Part shown: positions 2,420 to 11,245 of the stretch, piece after piece
Position numbering within the stretch: position 1 is the first letter of the stretch
Layout of the letters: every line of letters starts with the position of its first letter
From: an uncultured Hyphomicrobiales bacterium
GTDB taxonomy: Bacteria; Pseudomonadota; Alphaproteobacteria; Rhizobiales; Beijerinckiaceae
NCBI GenBank assembly: GCA_903847605.1
Contig: CAINED010000003.1
Span: 1 to 64,000 of the forward strand
Direction: 5' to 3'
DNA: 64,000 nt
Notes under the pieces: generated by a model
Seen by the model: the letters and a program-made list of their open reading frames with translations, nothing else
Database searches by the model: none
Told to the model about the DNA's origin: nothing
Translations under genes and position numbers: made by a program

Positions 2420-3622
2420 ATGCGTACATCTTCGGTAGCCGTCTCGGGTTTGTCAGAGGCCCCGCGCCCCTCGCGCCGTAGCGGGCGCGTCGACCAGTTG
2501 CAAAAGCAGGTCGAGAAAATGCTGCGCCGTCTGCGGCTGGCGGTGATTTACGGTGGCAACAAGGCGACCGAAGGCGCGGTCATCAATCCTGCTCCTAACG
2601 CCCGCTCGTGGAAGAGCTACGAGGTCGTCGCGCGCGATATCGCAGCTGCGCTCGGCCGGCTCGGCTGCCGCGACGTTTTCGTCATGCCCGAGGACATGAA
2701 TCTCGGCGAGCAGCTTCGCGACGAAAAAATCCACCTCGCCTGGCTGAACAGCGGCGGCGTGCAGGGCTATGGCTCGACGGCGCATGCGCCGGCCATGATG
2801 GAAATGCTGGGCATACCCTATATCGGGCACGATCCGCTGACGGCGGCGCTGCTCGACAACAAGCATGTCTTCAAGCGCCAGCTCAAGGCGCTCGGCATTG
2901 CGACCGCGCCCTTCATCACCTGGCATCCTGCCGAAGGCGCGTTCAATCCCTGGACGCATGCGCGCTTCCAGAACGAATTCCTGGGCTGGCGCGGCGACTA
3001 TGTGGTGAAGCCTGTTTCCGGCAGAGCCTCGCTCAACGTGCATTTCGTCGAGCGGGTCGAGAATGTCGCGGCCATCGCGCAGCATGTCTATGAAGTCACG
3101 CAGAACCAGGTTCTGATCGAGGGCTATCTTCCCGGCCGCGAATATTGCGTCGCCGTCTGCGGCCCGGTCGTGGCGCACGGCAAGCAGCTCGAGAGAAACG
3201 ACGGGCCCTTCACCTTTGCCGAGATCGAGCGCGTGCTCGAGCCGGGCGAGTCGATCTTCACTTCGATGGATGTGAAGCCGATCAGCGGCGCGCGCGTGCG
3301 CCAGCTCGACGACTTCACCGACAGCAAGGTCATCGATCGCCTGCGCGAACTCGGACGCGAAGTCTTTACCGCGCTTTCGCTCGATGCGCTCATCCGCATG
3401 GACGTGCGCGCCGACGCGGACGGCAATCTCTTCGTGCTCGAAGCCAATCCGAAGCCTGATCTGAAGGCGCCGGGCGAAGGCGTTTCAAGCCTCATCTGCG
3501 AAGGTCTGGCGCGCTACGACATGACCTACGACGACCTCATCTATTCGCTACTCGCCGATCGCATCGACGCCGCGCTCAGTCGCGGCCGCGGCGCGCCCGG
3601 CAAACTCATGAACCTCATCTGA
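2420..3622 (+). CDS. D-Ala-D-Ala-ligase-like ATP-grasp enzyme
   Basis: 400 residues. After a basic N-terminal tail of about 35 residues comes LAVIYGGNK, the first strand of a D-alanine ligase N-domain, followed by the ATP-grasp core: VKPVSGRAS (ATP lysine loop), EGYLPGREY (central strand) and VLEANPKPDL near residue 340, the E-x-N magnesium site. The family joins a carboxylate to an amine with ATP. No mur, fts or cell-wall genes are nearby, so a housekeeping role in peptidoglycan synthesis is doubtful. The enzyme is probably a paralogue that makes or modifies a dipeptide-like compound. The start is uncertain: ATG 2420 has only a weak GGCGGG before it, and ATG 2519 would give a protein starting right at the domain. 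First gene of a four-gene unit; the next starts 23 bases later. Confidence 0.8.
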   Translation: MRTSSVAVSGLSEAPRPSRRSGRVDQLQKQVEKMLRRLRLAVIYGGNKATEGAVINPAPNARSWKSYEVVARDIAAALGRLGCRDVFVMPEDMNLGEQLRDEKIHLAWLNSGGVQGYGSTAHAPAMMEMLGIPYIGHDPLTAALLDNKHVFKRQLKALGIATAPFITWHPAEGAFNPWTHARFQNEFLGWRGDYVVKPVSGRASLNVHFVERVENVAAIAQHVYEVTQNQVLIEGYLPGREYCVAVCGPVVAHGKQLERNDGPFTFAEIERVLEPGESIFTSMDVKPISGARVRQLDDFTDSKVIDRLRELGREVFTALSLDALIRMDVRADADGNLFVLEANPKPDLKAPGEGVSSLICEGLARYDMTYDDLIYSLLADRIDAALSRGRGAPGKLMNLI

Positions 3623-3645
3623 CCGGGCGAAGAAGGACCACGCCT

Positions 3646-6039
3646 ATGCAGGCCGCCTATACAATCCACAGACGCATCGTCGAAGGGCTGACCAGCCTCG
3701 TCGTCTGCGGGCTTTCGCTCATACTTCTGCTTTATGTCGGCAACGGCACGGCGAAGCAGAACTACGAGGAAATCTACATCGAGAAACTGCTCTCGCAAGG
3801 CGAGATCATGAAAAGCGCCATCGAGGCGCGACTGAGGTCCGGTCTTCCGCTGCGCCAGTTCGTCGGATTCGCGTCCGCGGCCGAGCCGATCATGACGTCC
3901 GACAACTCGATCGCCGGGATCGCCGCTCTGGACAGCGGCGGACAACGTGTTTTCGCGGCCGGCGACAAGAAGATCGATATTCTCCCGCAGGCCAGCGTAT
4001 TCCGCGACTATCGCGGCGCAGGCGAGCTACGCTCATCGGATCAGTTCTTTCAGCTCGTTCTCCCTCTCGATAATAAGTTCGAAAACGTCGGCAAGCTTCT
4101 GATCACCGTCACGCGCGCGGCGATCGAAAGCCGCGTCGAAAGCGACATCGCATGGCTCGCGAAAATCGGCGCCCTCGCCGCTTTCGCGTTTGGTGCATTT
4201 GTCTTTCTGTTCGGGCCGAAGCTGGCCCATACGCGTACGCCGTGGATAGCGATCTGTTATGGCGCAATCTTTTTGGCGATTTCCGGCTTGCTCGTCAGCA
4301 CGCTGATCACGCTTTACGCTGATGGTGTTCGCGGCAAGGCCGACGCTCTCGCCAATTCGCTGGCCAAACGTCTCGATGACGTGGTGCTCGCGAATATCAA
4401 CTTCGACGACGTGCATGGCCTCGACAAGGTCTTTGTCGAGTATAAGCGGCTCAATCCCGATATTCGCGCTGCGGCTTTGACTGTCGATGCGAAAATTGTC
4501 AGCCACACCGATCCGAACCGCCAGGGCACGCGCTGGATTATTCGCGACGACTACGAATACGCTGTGCGCATCAATCCTGAAAACGCCTCCTCGGAAGTCA
4601 AGGTGATCGTCGCCCTGCCAAAAGAGGTCGTCTATCGCCGCGTTGTGCGATCGGTGAAAAACTTCGCGGCATTGTTCGTTGCGTCGGGCTTCTTTGCTCT
4701 GCTCTTCATGGACCTTGCCAAGTCCGTGCAGATGGTCTCGGCACGCAACGTGGCGCGGAAAGAAAACGAGGTTGAGGGCGAAAGCGCGCTCAATCTCGTC
4801 AAACCCGTCTATTTCCTCGCGGTCTTCGTCGAGAACCTCTCTTACGCGTTCCTGCCGCAATATGTGAAAGGCGTGGTCGATTCCGCCGGCATGTCAGCGA
4901 ACTTTGCTTCGACGCCGTTCATAGCCTTCTATCTCTGCTTCGCTCTGGCCTTGCTGCCGGCAGCCCGCGTTGAAAGAAAGTTTGGCGCACGGGCGCTCAT
5001 CTCGACCGGCTTGTTGCTGTCCTGTGTGGGCCTGCTGACGATGTTCGCCAGCGCCGATTACTATCACATCCTAGCAGCGCGCATCATCTCGGGCATCGGT
5101 CAGGGCGTCCTCTTCATCGGCGTACAGTCCTACATCCTCGCGGTGACGACCCATGAGAACAGGACGCGCGGCGCCGGTATCATCGTGTTCGGCTTCCAGG
5201 CCGGCATGATATCCGGCATGGCGATCGGTTCGCTGCTTGTGCGCAATCTTCTGCCTTCGGGCGTCTTTGCGATGGGCGCGGCGATAGCTTTTGCAGCGCT
5301 CGTCTTCCTGCTCGCCTTCGTGCCGAGGATTCACCTCGTCGAAACCGCGCAGCGGAACATCGTCAGCCTGCGCGAAACCTGGAGCGACCTGAAGATCGTC
5401 CTGACCGATGGCCGCTTCCTCAAGACGATGCTTTTCGTCGGCGTGCCTGCCAAGGCCGTGATGACCGGCGTCATCCTGTTCGCCCTGCCCCTTCTTCTCG
5501 CCAAGCAGAACTATCTGCAGGAAGACATCGGTCAGATCACGATGATCTATGCGATCTGCGTCATCGTGGCGAGCAACTATCTCTCGAAACTGTCCGACCT
5601 CAGGGGCAACACCGAGTCAATCCTCTTCTGGGGCACCATCCTCAGCGGCATCGGCCTTGTGATCATCGCAGCCTTTACCTGGGATCAACTCGCCAAGCCG
5701 CTCGAATTCGGGTCCTGGATGACCATTGTGGTGATCGCGGGCGTCGCCATCGTCGGCATCGCGCATGGCTTCATCAATGCGCCTATCATCACCCACGTCA
5801 GCGACTCCGATCCTGCCGCTCGCATCGGCGCAGGAACGGTCGCCGCCATGTACCGCTTCCTCGAGCGTATCGGCCACAGCGTCGGACCGCTGATTGTCGG
5901 ACAACTCTTAATTCACTGGAACTTCAAGGCGGATGTGCTCGGCTGGATCGGCCTTGCCATCATCCTCTTCGGTTTCATGTTCCTGATCAAGAAAAGCCCG
6001 GCCAAAGCGAGCCACATCGAAATGAAGGGAGCTGCATAA
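3646..6039 (+). CDS. Sensor-MFS chimera: two extracytoplasmic sensor-like domains fused to a major facilitator transporter
   Basis: 797 residues, about twice a normal MFS protein. Order: a first helix (about 12-31), an extracytoplasmic region (32-168) looking like a Cache or PAS-type sensor, two helices (169-190, 200-222), a second extracytoplasmic region (223-335) containing the Cache-like stretch AAALTVDAKIVSHTD, a helix (338-356), a charged linker, and from about 385 an MFS fold. The MFS part has around 12 helices and the loop RIISGIGQGVLFIG. The domain architecture is seen directly as hydropathy and motifs; the sensor assignment is inferred from layout and short motifs. The stop codon overlaps the next start by one base (TAATG), so it is translationally coupled to the secreted binding protein. 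A transporter gated by, or signalling about, a periplasmic ligand would fit. Confidence 0.8.
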   Translation: MQAAYTIHRRIVEGLTSLVVCGLSLILLLYVGNGTAKQNYEEIYIEKLLSQGEIMKSAIEARLRSGLPLRQFVGFASAAEPIMTSDNSIAGIAALDSGGQRVFAAGDKKIDILPQASVFRDYRGAGELRSSDQFFQLVLPLDNKFENVGKLLITVTRAAIESRVESDIAWLAKIGALAAFAFGAFVFLFGPKLAHTRTPWIAICYGAIFLAISGLLVSTLITLYADGVRGKADALANSLAKRLDDVVLANINFDDVHGLDKVFVEYKRLNPDIRAAALTVDAKIVSHTDPNRQGTRWIIRDDYEYAVRINPENASSEVKVIVALPKEVVYRRVVRSVKNFAALFVASGFFALLFMDLAKSVQMVSARNVARKENEVEGESALNLVKPVYFLAVFVENLSYAFLPQYVKGVVDSAGMSANFASTPFIAFYLCFALALLPAARVERKFGARALISTGLLLSCVGLLTMFASADYYHILAARIISGIGQGVLFIGVQSYILAVTTHENRTRGAGIIVFGFQAGMISGMAIGSLLVRNLLPSGVFAMGAAIAFAALVFLLAFVPRIHLVETAQRNIVSLRETWSDLKIVLTDGRFLKTMLFVGVPAKAVMTGVILFALPLLLAKQNYLQEDIGQITMIYAICVIVASNYLSKLSDLRGNTESILFWGTILSGIGLVIIAAFTWDQLAKPLEFGSWMTIVVIAGVAIVGIAHGFINAPIITHVSDSDPAARIGAGTVAAMYRFLERIGHSVGPLIVGQLLIHWNFKADVLGWIGLAIILFGFMFLIKKSPAKASHIEMKGAA

Positions 6040-7241
6040 TGTTCAGCCCATCCGCATCCGGCTTTCGCGGCGCTGCTTTCGCCTGTGCACTCGCACTTGC
6101 CATCATTCCCGGCATCGCCCGCGCGAATGACGAGTTTCGCTCCGAGTGGTTCGGCTTCGGCAGCGAGGTGAAGGCGAGCTGGCGCATCGAAGCCATGCCC
6201 AATGACAACATGCGTGTCATCGTTCGCCCGAAATGGCTGGCGGAGGAACATGTCAAACGCCGGATCGTCGTACTCTATCCGCGCGCTTCGTCCGCCTACA
6301 ATGTGGCGATCACGGAAATCCTGCACGTCTTCGAAGACAAGCAGGTCGATGTCGAGTTCCACGTTATCAACTTCGATCGCAAGGACGACAAGGGCAAGGC
6401 GAGTATTCGCGAAGCCGAGGCGATGAACGCCAACATGATCATTTCCATGGGTTCTGAGTCGACAGCATGGCTCTGGGACAATTATCGCGGCGGCAAGCTT
6501 CCGGTTGTGACGGTCTGCTCGAAAGATCCGGTGACGCTCGGGCAGGCGAACAATTACGAAAGCGGTTCGGGAACGAACTTTGCCTTCACGTCTCTGAACA
6601 TGCCTATCGACAGCCAGATGACCTACATCATCGATCTGATGCCGGAATTGAAGAATATCGGCATTCTCGTCGACAAGACGAACGTCAGCGCGATGGAAAC
6701 GCAAGCCAAGCCCATCGCCGATTATGCGCGCAAGAAAGGTCTTCGTCCTTTCATGCTTGCCATTTCAAGGCCCGAGAACGCGGCCGCCGAGCTTCGTACG
6801 CTCGTTCGTGAAGCCACGGCCTCCATGCAGAAGTCGGATGTCGATCTTACGCAGAGCATGTTCGTCGTGACCGGCAGCACCAGCGTCTTCAACGAGATCA
6901 GGACGATCAATCGCGAGGCCTCGCGCATTCCCGTGTTGAGTCTTGTGCCGGAAATCGTTCAGGCCGGCGACGACAGTGCTGCGATCTCCATCGGCATCAG
7001 CTTCGAGTCGAATGCGCATCTCGCAGCGGTTTATGCGTCGGAAATCCTGACCAATGCGGCGGCAGTCAAGGCGCTCAAGGTCGGCATCGTCTCGCCGCCG
7101 GATATCGCGATCAATTTCAAGCGCACGCGCGCGATCGGGTTGAAAGTGCCTTTCAGTTTCTTCGAAGCAGCGTCGACGATCTACGACCCGGCCGGCAAGC
7201 TCATCCGCTCGCCGAGCGTCGTCGTGTCGGCCAAACAGTAA
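6039..7241 (+). CDS. Secreted ABC_sub_bind (TrpX-like) periplasmic binding protein
   Basis: 400 residues with a signal peptide (about 1-29, cleavage near ARA-ND). The body has the features of the ABC_sub_bind family (PF04392): a Rossmann-like lobe, an IISMGSEST stretch, AFTSLNMPID, NIGILVDKTN in the hinge region, and NEIRTINREASRIPVLS in the second lobe. Members bind small ligands such as tryptophan and are often encoded beside sensors instead of ABC permeases. No ABC permease or ATPase is adjacent here. Its start overlaps the stop of the sensor-MFS gene, and a c-di-GMP gene follows, so it may present a ligand to the sensor-like region of the transporter. Confidence 0.82.
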   Translation: MFSPSASGFRGAAFACALALAIIPGIARANDEFRSEWFGFGSEVKASWRIEAMPNDNMRVIVRPKWLAEEHVKRRIVVLYPRASSAYNVAITEILHVFEDKQVDVEFHVINFDRKDDKGKASIREAEAMNANMIISMGSESTAWLWDNYRGGKLPVVTVCSKDPVTLGQANNYESGSGTNFAFTSLNMPIDSQMTYIIDLMPELKNIGILVDKTNVSAMETQAKPIADYARKKGLRPFMLAISRPENAAAELRTLVREATASMQKSDVDLTQSMFVVTGSTSVFNEIRTINREASRIPVLSLVPEIVQAGDDSAAISIGISFESNAHLAAVYASEILTNAAAVKALKVGIVSPPDIAINFKRTRAIGLKVPFSFFEAASTIYDPAGKLIRSPSVVVSAKQ

Positions 7242-7260
7242 TTTGCGTGGGGCAATAAAA

Positions 7261-9462
7261 ATGACAACGAATGGCAATCTTGCATTGAAAGAGAGCGCAG
7301 GAAGCCCGGCTGGCGCGGCCGCCTTGCGGCGCGACAGCGATCGCATGATTTCGGCGATCGGGCGCCTTGCCGAGATTCAATCGGCCAGCGAAAGCTTCGA
7401 CAGTCTCGCCTCGACATTGCCCGGCGTTGTGTATCAGCGTCTGGTAAGTCCGGAAGGCGATATCAGATACACCTACATCAGCGAGGGGGTGCGCGAATAT
7501 TTCGGCCTCTCACCGGAGCAGGTGCTCGAGAACTCCGAGGTGATGTTCTCGACTTATACGCCCGAGTATCGCGAGAACTTCCGCAAGAAGCTCGTCGAGG
7601 CCGGCAAGCAGCTCAAGACCTGGGACGTGGAAGCTTCGATCGTCGGCCCGGACGGACGCACGCGCTACACCCACGCCATCGCGCGCCCCTCCGCGCAGCC
7701 GGACGGTTCCGTGCTTTGGACCGGCGTCATTCTCGATGCGACGCGGATCAAGGAAGCCGAAGGCGCTCTTGCCGCAGCCGAGGCGAAGACGCGCACCGCG
7801 ATCATCGAATCCCTTTCGCAGGGTTTCATAATGTTCGGCGCCGATGGCGTGCTCGTCATGGCCAACACGCATGTCGGCGAAATGCTGCCGGGTATGGCGA
7901 ATGCAACTGCGCCAGGCGTGAGCTACAGTGACATCGTGCGTTGCGAAGTAGCGCAACATTGCGATCCGGCATTCGACACAGAAGTTTTCGAGGCAAAAGT
8001 TGCGGAACGACTCATGCTTTCCGCCGAAGGCAAGGGCGTCTTCGAGTGCAAGCTTTTCTCGGGCACGCATATTCTCGTCAACGAGCATAAGACCGAGAAC
8101 GGCGATACGGTTATTATCTACACCGATATCAGCCAGCTCAAGCAGCGCGAGGAAGAGATTGCGCATCTCGCCTATCACGACGTGCTGACGGGCTTGCCCA
8201 ACCGCGTCCTGCTGCACAAGCGCATGGAAGAAGCGCTTGCGGCCGCGGAACGCGAAGGCAAGAGCGCCGCGCTCGTCTATCTCGATCTCGACCGGTTCAA
8301 ATCCGTCAACGATACGCTCGGCCATCCTGCTGGCGACGCCTTGCTCGTCGCGGTCGGCGAAAAGCTCAAGCAAAATATCCGCGAACGCGATACGGCGGCG
8401 CGCCTCGGCGGCGACGAATTTGCGGTTCTCCTGACCGACATTCCCGAACCCGATGTCGTTCCGAAGCTTGCGCGTCGCCTGCTCGAAGCGATCTCGCAGC
8501 CGATCGATTATAACGGTCAGCAGATTTTCAGCACGGTCAGCATCGGCATCGCTTTCTCGGGTTCGGACGGGTCTGACCCCGATCAGCTCGCGCGTTGCGC
8601 CGATCTTGCGCTATACAAGGCCAAGGCCGATGGCCGCGCTACCTTCCGCTTCTTCGAAGCGGAGATGAATGCGCGCGCGCAGGAGCGCCGCAATCTCGAA
8701 ATCGATCTGCGCCGCGCGCTGGCAGACGAGGATCTGCAGATTCATTACCAGCCGCTGGTCGATGCTTTCACGGACGAGATTGTCGGCTTCGAGGCGCTGG
8801 TGCGCTGGACCCATCCGGTTCGCGGCGAGGTGACGCCTGTCGAATTCATTCCACTCGCGGAAGAAACCGGCGTCATCGTCAAGCTCGGCGAATATGTGTT
8901 GCGCAAGGCCTGCGTCGATGCGGCGGGGTGGCCCGAGCCAGTGCGCGTTGCCGTCAATCTTTCGCCCGCGCAGTTCCAGAACCACGATTTCGCGGATCTG
9001 GTGAAACTGATTCTCGAGGAAACAGGCCTCGAGGCGGGACGCCTGGAACTTGAGATCACGGAGTCCTTGCTGCTGCGCGACACCGCGAGCAATCTCGCAA
9101 CCCTGCGCGAGTTGAAAACTCTCGGCGTGCGAATCTCGATGGACGATTTCGGAACCGGTTATTCGTCGCTCGCGAATCTCCTGAGTTTCCCCTTCGACAA
9201 GATCAAGATCGATCGGTCTTTCGTTTCGGGTCTCGAAGGCAGCCCGGACTCGGCGGCGATCATCCGCGCGGTTCTGAGCCTCGGCAAGAGCCTGGGCATG
9301 ACGACCACGGCCGAGGGCGTCGAGACGCGCGACCAGCTCGCCTACTTGCGCTCGGAAGGTTGCATCGAAGTACAGGGCTTCTTCTACAGCAAGCCGACAG
9401 CCGCGGAAAACGTGGCCAACATGCTGGAGAAGGGCGTCGGCCGAAAGGGCGGCAGGCGTTAG
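7261..9462 (+). CDS. PAS-PAS-GGDEF-EAL c-di-GMP turnover protein
   Basis: 733 residues from ATG 7261, preceded by GTGGGG; an in-frame TTG at 7243 is possible. No signal peptide or membrane segment is seen, so it is cytoplasmic. A PAS domain (about 55-180) and a second PAS-like domain (about 195-300) precede a GGDEF domain whose catalytic signature is intact at residues 383-387, with an RERD inhibitory site five residues before it. The EAL domain has the EAL signature at 511-513 and DDFGTGYSSL at 628-637. Both catalytic halves look active, so it may both make and degrade cyclic di-GMP. It follows the binding protein by 19 bases, and the unit ends in a terminator. Confidence 0.92.
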   Translation: MTTNGNLALKESAGSPAGAAALRRDSDRMISAIGRLAEIQSASESFDSLASTLPGVVYQRLVSPEGDIRYTYISEGVREYFGLSPEQVLENSEVMFSTYTPEYRENFRKKLVEAGKQLKTWDVEASIVGPDGRTRYTHAIARPSAQPDGSVLWTGVILDATRIKEAEGALAAAEAKTRTAIIESLSQGFIMFGADGVLVMANTHVGEMLPGMANATAPGVSYSDIVRCEVAQHCDPAFDTEVFEAKVAERLMLSAEGKGVFECKLFSGTHILVNEHKTENGDTVIIYTDISQLKQREEEIAHLAYHDVLTGLPNRVLLHKRMEEALAAAEREGKSAALVYLDLDRFKSVNDTLGHPAGDALLVAVGEKLKQNIRERDTAARLGGDEFAVLLTDIPEPDVVPKLARRLLEAISQPIDYNGQQIFSTVSIGIAFSGSDGSDPDQLARCADLALYKAKADGRATFRFFEAEMNARAQERRNLEIDLRRALADEDLQIHYQPLVDAFTDEIVGFEALVRWTHPVRGEVTPVEFIPLAEETGVIVKLGEYVLRKACVDAAGWPEPVRVAVNLSPAQFQNHDFADLVKLILEETGLEAGRLELEITESLLLRDTASNLATLRELKTLGVRISMDDFGTGYSSLANLLSFPFDKIKIDRSFVSGLEGSPDSAAIIRAVLSLGKSLGMTTTAEGVETRDQLAYLRSEGCIEVQGFFYSKPTAAENVANMLEKGVGRKGGRR

Positions 9463-9492: not shown

Positions 9493-9513
9493 AGGGGCCT
9501 TCGGGCCCCTTTT
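9493..9513 (+). terminator. Rho-independent terminator of the 2420-9462 operon
   Basis: A perfect 7-bp stem AGGGGCC/GGCCCCT closed by a TTCG tetraloop and followed by TTT, 30 bases after the stop of the GGDEF-EAL gene. It separates that operon from the UbiD gene. Confidence 0.88.
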
Positions 9514-9601
9514 GCATTGCGGCCGTCTTGGCTAAAAGGAAACAAAGGTTCGTGGCGCACAACCCGCTGCAAACCTCGCGAGGAAGCACCCGGAGAATCA
9601 A

Positions 9602-11245
9602 ATGAACAAGCGCGTACCGCCGCCGCTCGCCAACCATCCCATTCAGGATTTGCGTGAGTGGCTGAAGCGTTCGGAAGATATCGGCGAACTCGTCACGGTC
9701 GACCAGCCTGTCGACGTCGAGGAGGAGATGAGCGCGATCGGCTATCTCGTCGCCAAGCAGAAGCCCTCGCCTGCCGTTCTGTTCAACACGCCCAAGGGTT
9801 TCGAGAAGAGCCCCATCGGCGCGCGCCACCTGTGGAACGTCTATGGTCCCAGCGTGCGTCGCATCGCGCTTTCGCTGGAGGAACATCCGGATACGCCGAC
9901 GGTCGAACTCATCCGCCGTACCAAGGACAAGATGAAGAAGCGCACGCTGCCGAATGAAGTTCCGGCTAGCGAAGCTGGATGCTTTGCTAATACGCTGACC
10001 GGCAAGAACATCGATCTTACCCAGCTGCCGATACCTCGCCACTGGCCGCTCGATGGCGGCAATTACGCCGGCACCTGCGACGCCGTGATCACGCGCGACC
10101 CGGATACGGGCTATCTCAACGTCGGCACCTACAGGATGATGGTGCAGGACAAGAACCACACCGGCCTCTATCTCTCGCCCGGCAAGGATGCGCGCCTGCA
10201 CATCACCCGCGCCTGGGCGATGGGCAAATCCGTGCCGGTCGTCGCCTGCTGGGGCATCGATCCCTTGTTCATGCTGGTGGGATCGCAGTCGTTTCCGAAG
10301 ACAGTGTCGGAATACGAATATGCGGGCGGCATAAAGGGTGAGCCGATCAAGGTCGTGAAGGCGAAGACCTCCGACCTCTTGTTCCCCGCCAGCGCCGAGT
10401 TCGTCGTCGAAGGCATTATCCGTCCGCAGGCGATGGCGCCGGAAGGCCCGTTCGGCGAATTCACCGGTTATTACGGCAAGCCCGAAGCCGCTGCTCCGCT
10501 CGTCGAGATCACGGCGATCCACTATCGCGACAAGCCGATCCTCACCAATGCGCTGATGGCCGATTACCCCTCCTGCGAGCAGAGCGGCTTCTTTTCGATC
10601 TTGCGCGGCGCGAAGATATGGGACGATCTCGACAAGCTCGGCGTGCCCGGCATCACGGGCGTCTATTCGCATCCTGCCGCCGCCGGCGGTTTCGGCATGA
10701 CCATCCTGTCGCTGGAGCAGAAATATGCGGGCCATGCCGCGCAGGCTCTGGCGCTAGCGGCGCAGGTGCCGGGAGGCTCCTATTATACGAAGTGGATCAT
10801 TGCGGTGGACGAGGACGTCGATCCCACCGACATGGATCAGGTGCTCTGGGCCATGGGCAGCCGTTGTAATCCGCTCGACGACATCGACATCCTCCGCAAC
10901 ACTTGGTCGACCGGGCTCGATCCGAGCCAGAACCCGCCGGAAGTGCGGCCCTATGGCTCCAAGGCTTTGATCAACGCCTGCAAGCAGCATCGGTATCTGC
11001 CGACATTCTCCAAGCGCACGAAATTGCGCAAGTCGATTTACGATCAGGTCGGCGATCGCTGGAGCGAGTTGGGCTTGCCCGGCACGATCCCCAACATTCT
11101 TGCCTTCGAGGCCGAACAGGCAGACGCGATAGCGGGTGCGGGCGTCTATCACGACGAGAAGGCGATGCGCTCTGCGCACGATATGGCCGCGCCGAAAGCG
11201 CAAGCGAAGAAGCCCGCGAAGAAGGCCGCTGCGAAGAAGAAGTAA
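9602..11245 (+). CDS. UbiD family decarboxylase
   Basis: 547 residues; GGAGAATCAA precedes the ATG. UbiD enzymes reversibly decarboxylate aromatic or alpha,beta-unsaturated acids using prenylated FMN. The family signature PEGPFGEFTGYYG gives glutamates 281 and 286 with the five-residue spacing of the catalytic E-x4-E pair, and the prFMN-binding region around ITRAWAMGK is present. The length exceeds the usual 490-500 residues because of a lysine/alanine-rich tail (PAKKAAAKKK) that is probably disordered. No UbiX prenyltransferase is in the window. The gene is convergent with the catabolic block on the minus strand, whose decarboxylase-type amidohydrolases suggest aromatic acid substrates. Confidence 0.93.
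   Translation: MNKRVPPPLANHPIQDLREWLKRSEDIGELVTVDQPVDVEEEMSAIGYLVAKQKPSPAVLFNTPKGFEKSPIGARHLWNVYGPSVRRIALSLEEHPDTPTVELIRRTKDKMKKRTLPNEVPASEAGCFANTLTGKNIDLTQLPIPRHWPLDGGNYAGTCDAVITRDPDTGYLNVGTYRMMVQDKNHTGLYLSPGKDARLHITRAWAMGKSVPVVACWGIDPLFMLVGSQSFPKTVSEYEYAGGIKGEPIKVVKAKTSDLLFPASAEFVVEGIIRPQAMAPEGPFGEFTGYYGKPEAAAPLVEITAIHYRDKPILTNALMADYPSCEQSGFFSILRGAKIWDDLDKLGVPGITGVYSHPAAAGGFGMTILSLEQKYAGHAAQALALAAQVPGGSYYTKWIIAVDEDVDPTDMDQVLWAMGSRCNPLDDIDILRNTWSTGLDPSQNPPEVRPYGSKALINACKQHRYLPTFSKRTKLRKSIYDQVGDRWSELGLPGTIPNILAFEAEQADAIAGAGVYHDEKAMRSAHDMAAPKAQAKKPAKKAAAKKK

Follow-up and report, generated by a model that had tools for sequence, protein, structure and literature searches.

Three adjacent genes of an uncultured Hyphomicrobiales bacterium (Beijerinckiaceae) form a conserved core that is inherited together in fixed order. 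They lie in a 64,000-nucleotide stretch, here called the window (assembly GCA_903847605.1, contig CAINED010000003.1, positions 1 to 64,000 of the forward strand), and encode an ATP-grasp ligase (A), a chimera of a sensor and a major facilitator superfamily (MFS) transporter (B), and an exported ABC_sub_bind binding protein (C). A fourth gene, D, encodes a PAS-GGDEF-EAL protein, and all four occupy one strand (+) between 2420 and 9462, ahead of a TTCG-loop hairpin. The original prediction, made from the letters of this stretch, joined the four into one unit; A-B-C stands as the unit's conserved core, whereas D is an exchangeable output. A-B-C may constitute a sensory module with its own enzyme, in which A makes a compound, B exports it and relays its level and C detects it, a reading to which we give slightly less than an even chance.

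When genome contigs were scanned with aligned C proteins, 134 relatives were returned, the best 80 of which were kept, so tallies over 80 loci describe the best-scoring C proteins. An earlier scan of genome contigs with B alone gave no match. B lies directly upstream of C in 76 of the 80 loci; the other four comprise three contig ends and one locus with B nearby and rearranged. Directly upstream of B, A is found in 66 loci, the remainder being contig ends (nine), loci with A nearby (two) and loci where it was called absent (three). A was called absent at L101, where the contig is short, and the stretches examined at L050 and L088 hold no A. Gene order is rearranged in L094, L095 and L111, and A is split into two frames in L036. 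Full-length B was present in 5 of 60 relatives, each time flanked immediately by A upstream and C downstream (5/5). L112, L113 and L117, assigned to Spirochaete and Chloroflexi, come from metagenome bins and could be misbinned. Two other metagenome bins (L050/L061 and L088/L092) carry two copies of the core each, with A present in the second copy (L061 and L092).

Co-occurrence across genomes agrees with this arrangement, the samples overlapping in that the 80-locus set appears to share several contigs with the alphaproteobacterial genome sample. Among 385 genomes drawn evenly from the Alphaproteobacteria, 11 (the window's included) encode full-length B, with C close by in all 11 and A in 9. 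B is rare in the phylum-wide sample, where it was found at 1e-60 in 4 of 398 genomes, all of the window's family (the make-up of 374 genomes is not shown); two further B genomes from that sample carry A, B, C and D. Separate searches of 371 alphaproteobacterial genomes at 1e-40 found A in 10 and C in 10, and nine genomes were common to both (P = 3e-16, assuming independent genomes and ignoring relatedness). The exceptions are G184, with two copies of A, both at contig ends, no B or C found and a cut frame after one copy that was not recognized as B, and G271, where C and B are present and a TauD-family dioxygenase stands in place of A. A chance neighborhood is ruled out by the adjacency counts, the nine shared genomes and the associated probability. 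The prediction of a unit as opposed to scattered genes is borne out by the co-occurrence of A, B and C in separate searches and in the same order, and the proposed search for the neighborhood in other alphaproteobacteria recovered the core order.

Trees of A, B and C were compared over 55 loci (53 of the 80 and two from Vibrio) plus the window. Distances correlated at 0.91 (A-B), 0.84 (A-C) and 0.93 (B-C), the largest permuted value being 0.44, and 36, 31 and 32 of 53 splits, respectively, were shared. The agreement of the trees therefore indicates that A, B and C travel together.

The genes encoding outputs are far more varied. A recognized signaling gene lies near the core in 55 of the 80 loci. 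These genes encode PAS-PAS-GGDEF(-EAL) proteins in 15 loci, PAS-histidine kinases in 25 (14 divergent and upstream, 9 downstream on the same strand and 2 otherwise), dCache-class III cyclases in 9 (6 by Pfam and 3 by similarity, within about 4 kb of C), a dCache-kinase in 1 (L102) and PAS_7-GGDEF-EAL proteins upstream of A in 2. In the remaining three, the output has PAS domains and its type was left uncalled in the tally; Pfam identifies kinases in L049 and L056, and the L046 gene is cut. Several of the kinase genes are followed by one for a CheY-like regulator. D as a fixed part of the unit was rejected, as its PAS-GGDEF type occurs in 15 loci and the others differ or have no recognized output.

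D itself has PAS_3, PAS_7, GGDEF and EAL domains (Pfam) and contains RERD-x5-GGDEF, EAL, DDFGTG and EGVET, which we take to be its catalytic and inhibitory motifs. The I-site, GGDEF, EAL and DDFGTG are intact, confirming what had been read from the translation. PAS pairs on GGDEF-EAL proteins and kinases at other loci are 42 to 54% identical to that of D, and a dCache part is common to the cyclases and the L102 kinase. Because the PAS pair and dCache each recur on different outputs, outputs have been exchanged behind a conserved sensor. Output type changes only 6 times on the trees (45 labeled rows; shuffles gave a mean of 20 and a minimum of 15), and the output is therefore inherited, with only an occasional exchange. 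The PAS pair seldom occurs outside the A-B-C neighborhood: eight strong matches (E <1e-65) were found in the 385 genomes, six beside A-B-C and one at a contig edge in an A-B-C genome. The eighth, a kinase in G352, stands alone, with no A, B or C within 18.5 kb. Six weaker matches (E 1e-42 to 1e-48) come from genomes without full-length B.

A matches Pfam Dala_Dala_lig_C (PF07478; 1e-11), and the solved structures nearest to it are D-Ala-D-Ala ligase (Ddl) enzymes. It contains the ATP-grasp catalytic core of the Ddl fold: in an alignment with DdlB, K148, K197, E234, E241, E341 and N343 are kept in 62 of 62 homologues, and R326 and D328 in 61. By analogy with DdlB, these are presumably the two lysines, the metal-site E and N, and the R and D of the active site. 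NCBIfam Ddl models gave A at best 83 bits against a cut-off of 243, and none of the best 25 of 34 models reached its cut-off. Another site in the same genome (C62:139-729) matches PF07478 more strongly. A housekeeping Ddl was ruled out on these two grounds, and A is unlikely to be the cell-wall enzyme.

B matches MFS_1 (2e-43) over residues 389 to 748, and its first 340 residues match no Pfam family. An AlphaFold2 model (mean predicted local distance difference test score [pLDDT] of 86; predicted template modeling score of 0.84) places a helix at 7 to 63, an alpha/beta domain at 75 to 156, helices at 157 to 248, a second alpha/beta domain at 259 to 325 and a helix at 327 to 367, before 12 MFS helices. 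Approximately 47% of the protein (residues 1 to 373) thus lies outside the MFS part. In the model, each extracytoplasmic domain combines strands with a long helix and is flanked by membrane helices, which supports the two sensor-like regions predicted from the sequence. They are called Cache-like here from the succession of modeled helices and strands, and not from a profile or fold match; Pfam Cache families matched none of 58 B proteins. Foldseek with whole B gave transporters or complexes containing one in its 50 listed matches, and so is uninformative on the Cache-like domains. VMAT2/VMAT1, MFSD10, NorA and MdfA lead among the matches listed, placing the MFS part nearest to drug and monoamine antiporters, an exporter branch that we take to be DHA1. 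NCBIfam efflux models matched below their cut-offs. Twenty polar or charged MFS positions are at least 90% conserved in the 58 proteins, as expected for a working transporter. The B proteins of L078, L085, L091 and L093 are longer (approximately 960 to 1,020 residues), with an extra C-terminal stretch; that of L093 matches MFS families only (Pfam). Frames matching the B profile also adjoin a C homologue at L125:7806-9104 and L139:3026-4153, and their products (432 and 375 residues) are too short for whole B.

C matches Pfam ABC_sub_bind (PF04392; 5e-10), has a signal peptide by eye and is modeled as a class I fold (pLDDT of 90), thus combining the family's profile and fold. It was predicted to be an exported binding protein without an ATP-binding cassette (ABC) partner, and none was found among the seven genes scanned with Pfam between 1123 and 11245. 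Its best Foldseek matches are CD0873 (6hnj and 6hni), 3lft and 3lkv (VC_1101), with which it has the Pfam family and the fold in common at 15 to 18% identity in structural alignments. The accessible part of PMC6816091 reports that CD0873, 3lft and 3lkv bind Tyr, Trp and Phe, respectively, and assigns CD0873 to a tyrosine import system. C retains the DP, N and S of these aromatic amino-acid binding proteins in the structural alignment. A second clue comes from the dCache partners near A-B-C loci, as all eight that were aligned contain a Y-x4-R-x-W triad. The same spacing separates Tyr121, Arg126 and Trp128 of PctA, which bind the carboxyl group of the ligand according to the portion of PMC6974571 available. 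Together, these features hint at an amino-acid-like carboxylate as the ligand.

Relatives more distant than the 80 loci were a handful of loci selected by match to B and are not a census. Long N-terminal parts are also present in proteins whose match to B is limited to its MFS half. At 11 loci of such proteins, Pfam identified ABC_sub_bind in 8 (L037, L039, L126, L127, L128, L129, L130 and L141); only the weaker C profile recognized the binding protein of L038, and no ABC_sub_bind gene was found in L123 and L140. Sensor-like genes near these loci, or near C in L125, encode SpoIIE phosphatases in six of six scanned (L037, L039, L125, L129, L130 and L140). Other amino-acid enzymes are present: L126 has an ATP-grasp protein of an unnamed subfamily (DdaF match of 220 bits, below the cut-off of 840), L130 a GCS2-family ligase, and L039 and L141 alanine racemases. 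For small proteins that looked GNAT-like by eye (L038, L039, L126 and L141), the best result was a GNAT match that stayed under the cut-off (L141). A TauD-family dioxygenase replaces A at L124 (G440; by eye) and L139 (G271; by Pfam), each with a homocitrate-synthase-like gene; in L139, this gene lies beyond a series of overlapping frames in the order C, SpoIIE, TauD and B.

Six Vibrio records match at least 80% of B. In two plasmid records, L121 (NZ_AP025494.1 35464-53461) and L122 (NZ_CP053542.1 207757-225844), A-B-C sits within a type VI secretion cluster, flanked by tssH on one side and the FHA/tssJ/tssK genes on the other, with an SBP_bac_3-like gene alongside. The annotated stretch of L121 lists no GGDEF, kinase or cyclase gene. 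Type VI secretion as a general partner was rejected, as nine genes of the Vibrio cluster are unmatched in the 80 loci. Next to A-B-C and on the opposite strand, L098:7432-13147 encodes cyclic-nucleotide-binding-like and peptidase/ABC-exporter-like proteins of the bacteriocin-export kind (by eye).

In the proposed mechanism, A would spend ATP on coupling an amino acid (or a similar acid) with a second molecule, and the product would cross the inner membrane, most likely outward, through the MFS half of B. C would bind this product in the periplasm, and loaded C, the Cache-like domains of B or both would alter the state of B, which would be passed to an output protein. In the window genome, the PAS pair of D would then set the balance of cyclic di-GMP (c-di-GMP) synthesis and breakdown; relatives would use a kinase, cyclic-nucleotide cyclase or SpoIIE phosphatase as the output. 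The net effect would be a small-molecule signal that is self-made, exported and self-sensed, or feedback control on release. The ligand type follows from the relationship of C to Tyr, Trp and Phe proteins and the dCache triad, and the direction from the proximity of the MFS part to VMAT, MFSD10, NorA and MdfA and the sub-cut-off efflux matches. The role of the enzyme is suggested by the near-invariant catalytic residues of A and the other amino-acid enzymes at distant loci. The original prediction gave ligase, transporter and binding protein similar roles, which the families fit, and had the signal end in c-di-GMP. That end point applies to part of the family and is not general, as histidine kinases, class III cyclases and, distantly, SpoIIE phosphatases take its place.

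Several observations weigh against this mechanism. The weakest step is the passage of the signal from B to outputs such as D, in which no membrane segment was seen by eye; the cyclases lie up to 4 kb from C, with intervening genes (L096), and 25 of the 80 loci have no recognized output, although C is followed by <1.6 kb in 11 of these and one, L112, has a dCache-HAMP gene. Common vertical descent would yield the same agreement among trees. FLVCR, a choline/ethanolamine carrier, appears further down the Foldseek matches of B, and the fold therefore leaves the direction of transport unsettled. The TauD-family dioxygenases that replace A in G440 and G271 need not be biosynthetic. C has L186 in 75 of 75 proteins where the Tyr, Trp and Phe binding proteins carry D (after TS, VS or LS), and the dCache partners carry no acid at precisely the spacing of the acids that bind the amino group (PctC Asp149 and Asp176, as given in the accessible part of PMC6974571), with acids nearby at D/E232 (7/8) and E265 (8/8). 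L186 and the missing exact acids would fit a ligand with a blocked amino group, for example, through ligation, which is our conjecture. The available part of PMC11113362 also notes that binding-protein genes adjoining sensor genes are not always functionally linked.

The main rival, environmental sensing with uptake, is on the unlikely side. C and the Cache-like domains would sense an amino acid or peptide from outside, B would import it and A would use or modify it, so that the cell would make no signal of its own. Studied members of the amino-acid binding family of C serve uptake (PMC6816091, in its accessible part), and the sensing of external amino acids, whether linked to binding proteins or through dCache domains, is known (PMC11113362 and PMC6974571, likewise in part). 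However, the MFS of B is nearest to exporters, an ATP-consuming ligase would be an unusual first step of use, C has no ABC partner in the seven scanned genes, and different ligases and amino-acid enzymes stand beside the distant relatives.

Efflux with feedback is a poorer explanation still and rather improbable. A would make a defense compound or detoxify a metabolite by ligation, B would export it, and C and the output would track its concentration and tune the cell envelope or secretion, in the manner of an antibiotic operon that includes an exporter and a sensor. The exporter-like MFS of B, the position of A-B-C within two Vibrio type VI secretion clusters and the precedent of bacilysin, in which an ATP-grasp ligase adjoins an MFS exporter, are in line with such a role. 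Nevertheless, no further biosynthetic gene recurs in 28 gene lists (by eye, uncounted by family), nearly half of B is not transporter, and most loci have a signaling gene near. A RimK-like A that modifies a protein, with the MFS half of B relaying a signal and not transporting, is very improbable: a RimK ATP-grasp protein is linked with an EAL protein in Pseudomonas, transporter-like sensors such as UhpC exist and Vibrio A has a sub-cut-off RimK-family match, but A matches Ddl models better and the conserved polar and charged MFS positions fit a working transporter.

The sensory module with its own enzyme could extend to an undescribed form of chemical signaling, in which a messenger made by a ligase is released by a sensor-exporter and read back by a binding protein, with outputs plugged into one core (c-di-GMP, cyclic nucleotide, two-component, SpoIIE and type VI secretion). 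We hold this possible rather than probable. A constant core with outputs swapped among second messengers and kinases, and distantly phosphatases, suggests that its input (ligand, ligase, sensor-MFS and binding protein) addresses a single physiological question shared by many bacteria. If A does make the ligand, all the components of a self-sensing circuit would be encoded by a single operon. The core also offers a lead to the function of families with little annotation, namely of sensor-MFS proteins, of ABC_sub_bind proteins without an ABC partner and of Ddl-like ligases outside cell-wall synthesis.

The checked frames, starts and stops confirm the predicted same-strand layout: A and B are separated by 23 bases, B and C overlap by one base (TAATG), C and D are separated by 19 bases, and D runs from an ATG at 7261 to a TAG ending at 9462. 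The hairpin (aggggcc-ttcg-ggcccct, 9493 to 9510) is a probable terminator. The 9460-to-9530 region folds at -30 kcal/mol (z of -2.64), and a simple consensus terminator scan did not have this hairpin among its calls. Two DoxX-family genes lie upstream of A (1123 to 2070; Pfam), a UbiD-family decarboxylase gene lies 3' of the hairpin (9602 to 11245; Pfam), and the window has a tRNA-Arg gene at 839 to 915.

Table 1. Coordinates of the A-B-C-D locus features in the window
Feature	Position	Strand	Description
A	2420..3622	+	400 residues; ATP-grasp ligase, D-Ala-D-Ala-ligase fold
B	3646..6039	+	797 residues; sensor-MFS chimera
B, first extracytoplasmic alpha/beta domain	3835..4113	+	Residues 64-156; Cache-like (model)
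B, second extracytoplasmic alpha/beta domain	4390..4623	+	Residues 249-326; Cache-like (model)
B, MFS domain	4765..5985	+	Residues 374-780 (Pfam, Foldseek)
C	6039..7241	+	400 residues; exported ABC_sub_bind binding protein, class I fold
D	7261..9462	+	733 residues; PAS_3-PAS_7-GGDEF-EAL, output of the window copy
D, PAS pair	7381..8148	+	Common to PAS-histidine kinases beside other A-B-C loci (alignment of 31 copies)
TTCG-loop hairpin and short T tail	9493..9518	+	Probable terminator, 3' of D

The original prediction knew of no described system with this combination. Likewise, no description of a ligase, a sensor-MFS chimera and a binding protein with plug-in outputs was found in the literature searched, a coverage from which subscription journals are mostly absent. 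The closest likenesses lie in binding-protein-coupled sensing. LuxPQ pairs a periplasmic binding protein with membrane sensing and a kinase output, and NspS-MbaA, as far as the accessible part of its description goes, combines a periplasmic binding protein, membrane sensing and a c-di-GMP output, as in the window locus. In both systems, sensor and output form a single transmembrane protein, whereas B has no output domain and D is separate; in addition, the membrane sensor is here fused to an MFS transporter, and the operon includes a ligase. UhpABC and PgtPCBA couple an MFS-type sensor or transporter, and in Pgt a periplasmic protein also, to a two-component output. Unlike A-B-C, they are not known to include a ligase or Cache-like domains on the MFS protein, and they have one fixed output. 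BacD-BacE (bacilysin) and DdaF (dapdiamide) resemble A-B-C in their ATP-grasp dipeptide synthases and, for bacilysin, in the gene for an MFS exporter, BacE. They are not known to include sensor domains, a binding protein or a signaling output, and A matches Ddl models best. These comparisons suggest that each part of A-B-C is of a known kind, as is binding-protein-coupled sensing, and that the novelty lies in their combination with exchangeable outputs.

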